A stretch of 64,000 nucleotides of DNA from Owenia fusiformis (lineage: Eukaryota; Annelida; Polychaeta; Sabellida; Oweniidae), in NCBI GenBank assembly GCA_903813345.2, contig CAIIXF020000005.1, positions 39,745,375 through 39,809,374 of the forward strand. Reading direction: 5' to 3'. Position 1 is the first letter of the stretch. Each line of letters opens with the position of its first letter. Under the pieces are notes generated by a model that worked only from the letters and a program-made list of their open reading frames with translations, was not told where the DNA came from and ran no database searches. The position numbers and the translations under genes are program-made. This document shows, in pieces, positions 41,101 through 64,000 of the stretch.

Positions 41101-44100
41101 TGCAGTGTTCACTGCAGATATCCGCTGGTTGAGATTCTAGTGCGATATCCCTCTCAGATCTCTTTTCACCGCTGTTAGATAATACATATAATTCAAACTG
41201 ACAGCATCAAGATTTGACCATATCAACAGTTTTTATTCATCAAAGTGTTTATTTGATGTATAACAATAATTCATCATGTAAACCCTTAAGGTTGCCCCGC
41301 ATATCCGTGACAATGGTTACCCTAGTAACCATAATTTTGTCAATACTTAGTTGGTTGTCCAGAAATGTGGATAGTATAAGGTCAGATATGTGTTGCTTAT
41401 GTTGTAAAAGTTTCATGAAGAAATATGCAAGATAACGAAAGTTATAACAAAATTAGCAATACTTATTGAACGCCCTGTATATTCACAAACTCATAAGGCT
41501 ATACATATCAACTATTAAGCCCCATTCTATATTTCAGTCACAAGGCTATGGTTGAACAGGAGATGCTATGCTTTGCTAGTTGCATTCAGGGACAGAGTCT
41601 CATGGAGAATATGGCTGGCAGTAATGCTGTCAGGAGGCAGGCATTGGCTGCTTTTCTCAACAGTGCAAGGTTAGTCTCAGTAGAATTCATATTCTCAACA
41701 GGTTATTTCATTCAGCTATCTCATTGGCCACTCATTGACAATCATATGACTGTCTGGGAGGAGGTAATCCCAAAAAGGATAGGTCGTTGTAGATACAGCT
41801 GTCTGATTGGCCACTTTCAATCATGTGACTGGGATGAGGCAATCACAGAAGGGATGCTCAAATGGAACTCCAAATTCATCTTGGATAAAATTATGCTTGT
41901 ACAGTTTCTTTCAGTTTCAGCCAAGAACTCATGTGTGGAGTCCCTATTATTGGCCATTATTTCCTGTTATATTGAGTCCTTAGAAATACATGTTCCCTTA
42001 TTTAATTTATTAGAACAGCATTTGAAATAATACAAATAATGGCAACCTCTCATATGTTTTACTGTTGTATCTTATTCAGGTTTGCACGTAATGCGAACAA
42101 TGCCAAGCTTGTGATGACAGCAGCAAGGCACTACTGGAACAGTGTTATTCCCCTGGTAAAGCTACCAATGGAGAGAGAGCTACTCAAGGAACCTCTCAGG
42201 ATGATGCTACAATGCATCAATGCTACTGCACCAAAGAAGATTGTCAAAGAGGTATGAATATAATTGAAATGAATTGTACAAGAATGTCGAACTTTTATTT
42301 TGAAAATCAATAATCTTTGTGTGCCAGTATATCAAAAAATGACCATATATGTATGTATGACAGTGACATAGATATTTGTAAAGTTTGTTAAAATATTGCA
42401 GAGTGGCATGTGTCTAGCTGTAATGAAACAAACATGCAAAAATCGGCACATGTGCGTTGCTCACTTACAATATATATTTGTTCATAATACCATGTCCATG
42501 TTACACCAATGAGAATATTTCCTGACAAGGAGAGCATTGGATAGAAACCGAAAAATAACTTACCTGATTTGTTTCAATGACATATTATGTATTGTTGTAG
42601 GATAAGGGCAGTGATGATGAGGGTGAGACTGGTGGAGAGCCAGGTCTAGCTGCACTGAAGGAAGCAGCTGTAACAACTGGTGCAGGGGACCCTGATGATG
42701 ACATAGCTCTACGTGCAGCCCTCTATGGTGTCATGTTCCAGTCATATGCTGACTCTGGGGACTGGGAGAATGGCCTAATGGAGATGGAACAGGCTGTTAA
42801 TGATATGCCAAGGACAAAACATAGACTGTAAGTACAGGGTGTCCCAAAATTGTATGGTCAGCTGAAAGGCAAAACACAGACTGTAAGTACAGGGTGTCCC
42901 AGTAAAAGTAAAAAATTCGTAAACTGATGTGTGGAAAGAACATGTGAGCTAGTTTGCACAGATACAACCAAAATACAATTTTACTCAGACTTTACTCATC
43001 ATTTGACCTAAAAATAGTGTCTTATGAAAACATTGAACATTGTTGTTGTTACTGTAGGTTGATCTTCAAGCATCTGATCATAGCAAAAGCAAAGACAGGG
43101 AAGAATGTTGGAATGAGCATTCAGAAATTCCAAAATGAGAGTGAGGACTATGTGGCGCATATGTGGCGCAGGGTGGCACTATGTTCCAAGGAACAACTAG
43201 AGCAGCTTGAGGCCTACCAAAAAGCTATTGAGGCCTTAGAGGTACTGTCCTGTTATTTGTGCTTATTTCGGAAAATTTAAGATCATAAAATTCAGTATTT
43301 TCAACTATGGTTAAACATACATCACAATTCTGTTTTGATAAAATACCAGTTTTTCTTAAAAGATTATTCCGAAACAAGACAATATGTTATATTTTTAGTA
43401 ATCTATATTACATAAATTCACAGCAAATAAGTCTTTCTATAGGTTACAAAATAATGCTAGTAAGAGAGACACTAAAACTGTCAGATTTTCTTCAAATTTA
43501 TACTCTGTTTTGTGTGCTTTGATGTATTTTACAATAAATACATGTCATATTATTTATGGAGAACCATCTAATGATCCATAGACTCTGCATCAGCTTGATG
43601 TATTAGTAATATTACTGTCTTACCATTTTCAGAGTGAGCCAACCCAATGGCAGAAGTTTGACTACTTGTTAGAGTTTGGCCAATGGCTTTATTGTAATGA
43701 GTTCCCTCTAAATGATGCCCTTGACCAGCTGGAGTGGACCATAGATATACTGCTGAATATGAAGTTTGAAAGGCCCTCAACAAGGCAATGTAGGTTTTTA
43801 ATTCTAAAAGTTACTTTTAAATCATTTTTTATCCTTTGTTGCCTTATAATAGATGTTTTATATTCAAATCTATTATTTATATACTATTATATAAAGCATA
43901 GTTAAGCAATTTAATTTGTTTTCATAGTATTACTGCATATTGGGACTTTAAGGCCCAATTCAATGTTTTAAGTTTTTTTTAGCTCACATGGTGAGCTTTT
44001 GCAATCACTCACTTGTCCGTCTGTCCGTCCGTCCGTCCGTCTGTCCGTCCGTCCGTCCGTCTGTTCGTCCGTCAACAATAGTGGCACGTTTTAAAACCTC

Positions 44101-64000: not shown

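Follow-up and report, generated by a model that had tools for sequence, protein, structure and literature searches.

What keeps the two ends of a mobile element alike? The question is raised by a stretch of 64,000 nt from Owenia fusiformis (GCA_903813345.2, contig CAIIXF020000005.1, 39,745,375 to 39,809,374, forward strand), referred to here as the window. GC content ranges from 31 to 38% across it, many tandem arrays are found, and its exon-like open reading frames (ORFs) match P450 and a rhodopsin-type receptor. An initial annotation recognized four families of elements, named A to D, and proposed that their left arm can pair either locally or with the far end of the element, that the arms change in step between relatives, and that selection acts on terminal pairing. 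We conclude, with considerable confidence, that the elements are HINEs, gene-less and moved in trans by the Rep/helicase of a Helentron (Helitron2-type) encoded elsewhere in the genome. The observed evidence consists of the order of the modules, the presence of more than one copy of A, C and D, the common ends of the C copies in different flanks, arms that match and a small number of changes matched between them.

The four families share one layout: all seven named elements (A, B, C1, C2, D33, D56 and D57) have a hairpin at the 5' end, a body containing repeats and a distal complement of the left arm, at the places where the initial annotation had put them to within ~2 bases (Table 1). Two of the modules are less uniform than first described. 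The TCCG/TCTG run is present in B, C and D (as TCCG/GTCC), whereas A has a different G-rich stretch, and no microsatellite-like run was recognized in A2 or A3. The tandem-repeat body is composed of repeats of ~135-162 bp, but the bodies of D56 and D57 contain only ~1.8 repeat copies. BLAST of the element ends against the window added features that had been overlooked, namely A2 and A3, which are short A copies devoid of the array, and a decayed 5' end of the D family, for which no distal arm was recognized. Because D56 and D57 represent one recent tandem duplication (56400-58361, flanks included; 99% identity over 983 bp, spacing 980), they are counted once. Evidence that A and B are kin comes from their arms and short tails; MAFFT left the 3' arm of B unaligned with that of A.

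Table 1. Elements and element fragments recognized in the window, with the positions of their modules.
Feature	Span	Strand	5' arm	Local IR	Run	Body	Distal arm	3' palindrome	Remarks
Element A	45371..47540	+	45374-45384	45388-45398	G-rich, 45476-45518	tandem, ~136-bp unit	47506-47516		3' end (~47540) inferred; ends taken from A2 and A3
A2	27083..27243	+	27086-27096	27100-27110			27195-27205		one mismatch in distal arm
A3	36435..36574	+	36438-36448	36452-36462			36543-36553		distal arm probable, assignment ambiguous
Element B	60633..62203	+	60636-60646	imperfect, to 60663	TCCG, 60680-60743	tandem, ~162-bp unit, 61220-62064	62166-62177		
Element C1	43980..45131	+			44015-44073	~152-bp repeats	45100-45112	45115-45129	hairpin 43981-43997
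Element C2	29957..30870	-			30797-30836		29975-29986	29958-29972	hairpin 30853-30869
Element D33	33079..34545	+	33082-33093	33097-33109	33121-33194	tandem, ~135-bp unit, 33480-34323	34507-34518	34521-34538	3' end approximate
Element D56	56569..57340	+	56572-56583	56587-56600	56612-56655		57299-57310	57313-57330	3' end approximate
Element D57	57550..58320	+	57553-57564	57568-57581	57593-57636		58279-58290	58293-58310	
Decayed D-family 5' end	51943..51983	+	51949-51960						

Other repeats lie among these elements. A satellite array of a 117-bp unit (22919-26926, ~33 copies) is closely followed by the short copy A2, and just upstream of the array a stretch at 22848-22898 is 76% like the body of B. 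A second tandem array (14619-14877) has 59/118-bp units rich in CCCGTA/CTCGTAAT words, and a fragment like the body of D33 is found near it, at 14402-14448. A long inverted repeat at 49317-50355, with 284-nt arms that are 92% complementary and further paired segments inside, is a foldback or long-TIR element, while inverted-repeat pairs at 31768-32588, 40426-41482 and 18613-19256 (arms of 141, 191 and 42 nt, respectively) are possibly other MITE-like elements.

The anatomy of the window elements is that of a group already known. The published order of a HINE comprises a 5' subTIR, an adjacent complementary IR, a tetranucleotide run, central repeats, a 3' subTIR and a 3' palindrome, inserted at T-rich sites (PMC7492417; PMC2374699; PMC4067079). 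In the window, 5' and 3' subTIRs of ~11-15 bp are found in the seven named elements, together with an IR complementary to the 5' subTIR, and in B, C and D a microsatellite-like run follows the 5' module. The likeness to non-autonomous Helitron/Helentron (pearl-like) elements noticed in the initial annotation is thus well supported, module order and sizes being as in published HINEs, and its Helentron guess is right in kind. Novelty of the hairpin architecture and of the covarying arms is not supported: the layout is described in these papers, and arms that vary yet remain complementary were noted for DINE-1 (PMC2374699).

Several such descriptions come from animals. Cg_HINE of Crassostrea gigas, compared here by description and not by sequence, has a 5' subTIR of 11-12 bp, an IR of 7-12 bp close by, GTCY/GTCC runs, central repeats mostly of 140-180 bp, a 3' subTIR, a 3' palindrome and oligo-T sites, and oyster HINEs are described as carrying, in subTIR and IR, diagnostic changes specific to individual elements (PMC7492417). 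Pearl elements of bivalves, likewise compared by description, possess central repeats of ~160 bp and are grouped with HINEs (PMC7492417). Drosophila DINE-1 combines subTIRs, a partial IR beside the 5' subTIR, a GTCY-rich run, central repeats, a 3' stem-loop and TT insertion; its arms differ between species yet stay complementary, and a compensatory change in the 3' stem was inferred, as noted in 2008 (PMC2374699). The DINE-1 arm sequences are unlike those of the window elements, and DINE-1 has a conserved core (PMC2374699). The mite element HINE-Mo resembles the window elements in its palindromic subTIRs, 3' palindrome and T-rich insertion, described as leaving the target site unmodified, but differs in that microsatellites or tandem repeats are reported in some copies only (PMC4067079). 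Outside animals, the Helitron2-type FoHeli of Fusarium are described with a 5' hairpin, an arm of which recurs inverted near the 3' end, as well as with several 5' termini and with insertions in tandem; these fungal elements are ~5-11 kb long and carry ORFs, in contrast to the ~0.15-2.2 kb of the window elements, in which no Rep domain was seen (PMC5148889). The 5' end of element A is doubled, with starts at 45374 and 45422 (second copy 45422-45446), 48 bp apart, and two D 5' ends (33.08 and 56.57 kb) stand after D-body-like fragments (77-82% identity). Both arrangements are reminiscent of the several termini and the tandem insertions reported for Helitrons.

Matching of the arms is close. The left arm and the distal arm agree at 11/11 positions in A, 12/12 in B, 13/13 in C1, 12/12 in C2 and 12/12 in both D56 and D57, and at 12/13 in D33, where the one mismatch is G-T. 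Out of 2000 shuffles, the observed end-pair score was reached by 5 for A, 11 for D33, 1 for D56 and none for B, C1, C2 and D57; the counts for the short copies were 150 for A2, a weak end match, and 24 for A3. These counts flatter the result, as the ends were picked with the arms already known. The arms of the seven named elements match beyond shuffles; the match in A2 and A3 is weaker. As a control, 84 GTCY-run blocks of viral contigs were taken from a scan that listed at least 120 stretches. No block had both an exact arm of 11 or longer and a local IR of 6 or longer; when the IR was allowed to be as short as 5, one block reached an arm of 11, two reached 10, 11 reached 9 and 23 reached 8. 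Under the same rule, four of the five blocks detected in the window have exact arms of 12-13, only two of them (C1 and B) also having an IR of 6, and D33 is inconspicuous, its exact run of 8 being a length reached by 23/84 controls (IR at least 5). A plain scan of the window for a hairpin with a distal copy gave 72 rows, where 60 shuffles averaged 10.2 and peaked at 26, but the element ends account for only 6 of the 72, the remainder being mostly tandem-repeat bodies.

The two terminal structures differ in strength. When folded as a single strand, the 5' hairpin of A has an energy of -11 kcal/mol (z -5.1), followed by C1 (z -4.9), D33 (z -4.1), D56 and D57 (z -3.7) and B (z -2.1). For the 3' palindrome stretch, only that of C2 folds more stably than shuffles (z -3.48), the others giving -1.58 (C1), -1.52 (D33), -0.26 (A), 0.03 (D56 and D57) and 0.08 (B). 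The 3' palindromes are short: they can be read in C and D and are limited to 4-5 bp in A and B, while in A2 no palindrome reaches 4 bp. The 3' palindrome is the weakest HINE module in these elements.

If the window elements move as Helentrons do, a Rep/helicase encoded elsewhere would probably recognize the 5' subTIR at one end and the 3' subTIR at the other, the local IR would turn the 5' end into a hairpin, and the enzyme would cut at the T-flanked end and then peel off one strand. The 3' palindrome would probably mark the stop of strand transfer, as proposed for DINE-1. In this scheme, the rolling-circle mode, the enzyme involved, duplication-free insertion at T-rich sites and what each arm does are all inferred. 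Among the 84 ORFs of 75 aa or more in the window, no Rep/helicase, Helitron or transposase domain was found (Pfam, E 0.01). The matches at this threshold were to p450 (two) and to DUF3695, 7tm_1, a CFAP46 repeat domain and PT (one each), with weak matches to MC6, DUF3963 and MethyltransfD12 (one each). Two further ORFs have no Pfam match at E 0.01: by eye, one of 199 aa (28623-29222) is like the end of a retrotransposon polyprotein, and one of 203 aa on the minus strand (59452-60063), with a signal-like start and cysteines, is TIMP-like. In other DNA, a scan of viral contigs with the A/B hairpin pattern returned L001 and L002 (351 and 600 bases inspected), which by eye look like isolated hairpins in phage-type DNA. 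The C and D patterns had no match in the viral contigs, nor did the C pattern in the genome contigs scanned, and phage records searched by distant BLAST with one D and one C element yielded none.

The proposal that the arms change in step is borne out in part: matched changes are real, in about three events (A/B, the D arms and the D 3' palindrome), but older copies carry unmatched changes. A and B differ by one change per arm, at the matching site and complementary (p 0.030, post hoc). D33 and D57 differ by one matched change and by an additional distal difference that sets a G-T mismatch against a pair (p 0.054, post hoc). In the D 3' palindrome, overlooked in this respect by the initial annotation, a G-C pair stands against T-A (p 0.046, post hoc). 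The arms of C1 and C2 show no change, and A2 differs from A by a single distal change, unmatched. Between A and A3, one change is matched and one is not (p 0.062); with an alternative distal arm, four are unmatched beside one matched (p 0.15). Because there are two candidates for the distal arm of A3, it was dropped as a further matched change. The events are few, were partly picked by the initial annotation and are connected by descent.

Arms that change in step are expected if both ends must fit one enzyme, or if they must pair, and the data separate neither from the other. One enzyme could also be a DDE transposase, the elements then being cut-and-paste MITEs whose inverted repeats co-evolve through its binding. 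Such plain TIR co-evolution had been named as the main alternative, and the 11-13-bp inverted repeats and their matched changes agree with it, as does the fact that DINE-1 was formerly interpreted as a MITE (PMC2374699). However, the 5' arm lies near the end whereas the 3' arm is internal by ~19-40 bases (3' ends inferred from common sequence) and so not at the extreme end, and beyond it C1 and C2 have a palindrome in common. Both ends are common to C1 and C2 despite different flanks, from the start of a T-run to just past the palindrome in T-rich DNA; T-rich sequence precedes the 5' arm in all seven copies inspected (A, A2, A3, B, C1, D33 and D56), and by eye no obvious target-site duplication beyond T is seen at the element ends. 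Given the internal position of the 3' arm and the T-rich DNA around the ends, the DDE version fits less well than a Helentron, and we regard it as very improbable.

Pairing itself would be selected if the left arm acted as a two-state strand switch, in which local pairing closes the end and far pairing brings together the termini of an intermediate that is single-stranded or circular. The 5' hairpins do fold well as single strands, and the sole distal mismatch of D33 is G-T; the matched A/B, D-arm and D 3'-palindrome changes would be the footprint of such a switch if it exists. The same co-variation is, however, equally predicted by inverted binding sites for one protein, unmatched non-wobble changes occur in A2 and A3, and there are only about three events. 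Both complements of the left arm are present as proposed, but the local one is the less exact: matches to the left arm number 10/11 for the local IR and 11/11 for the distal arm in A, 8 and 10 in A2, 9 and 10 in A3 (9 and 7, thus reversed, under the alternative distal arm), 9/11 and 11 in B, and in D33 10 plus one G-T of 12 for the IR and 11 plus one G-T for the distal arm; the IR beside the 5' arm is imperfect in B and D. Tighter constraint therefore seems to lie on the two subTIRs than on the local IR, a pattern that recognition of both ends by a single protein would explain no worse than a pairing switch. Searches of the Helitron/Helentron literature on hairpins, co-variation and compensatory change gave no title on such a switch; those with the arm and hairpin strings gave no transposon title among the matches listed, in which the three longest strings do not occur. 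The switch is without direct support, is not favoured over plain protein recognition, and appears to us a decidedly unlikely explanation.

Read as HINEs, the elements add four families, which may already stand in Repbase, and this 64-kb stretch of the Owenia genome carries at least ten HINE elements or fragments, two of them being one duplication. Their matched arm changes offer a simple case in which base pairing can be set against protein recognition in keeping the ends of Helentrons alike.
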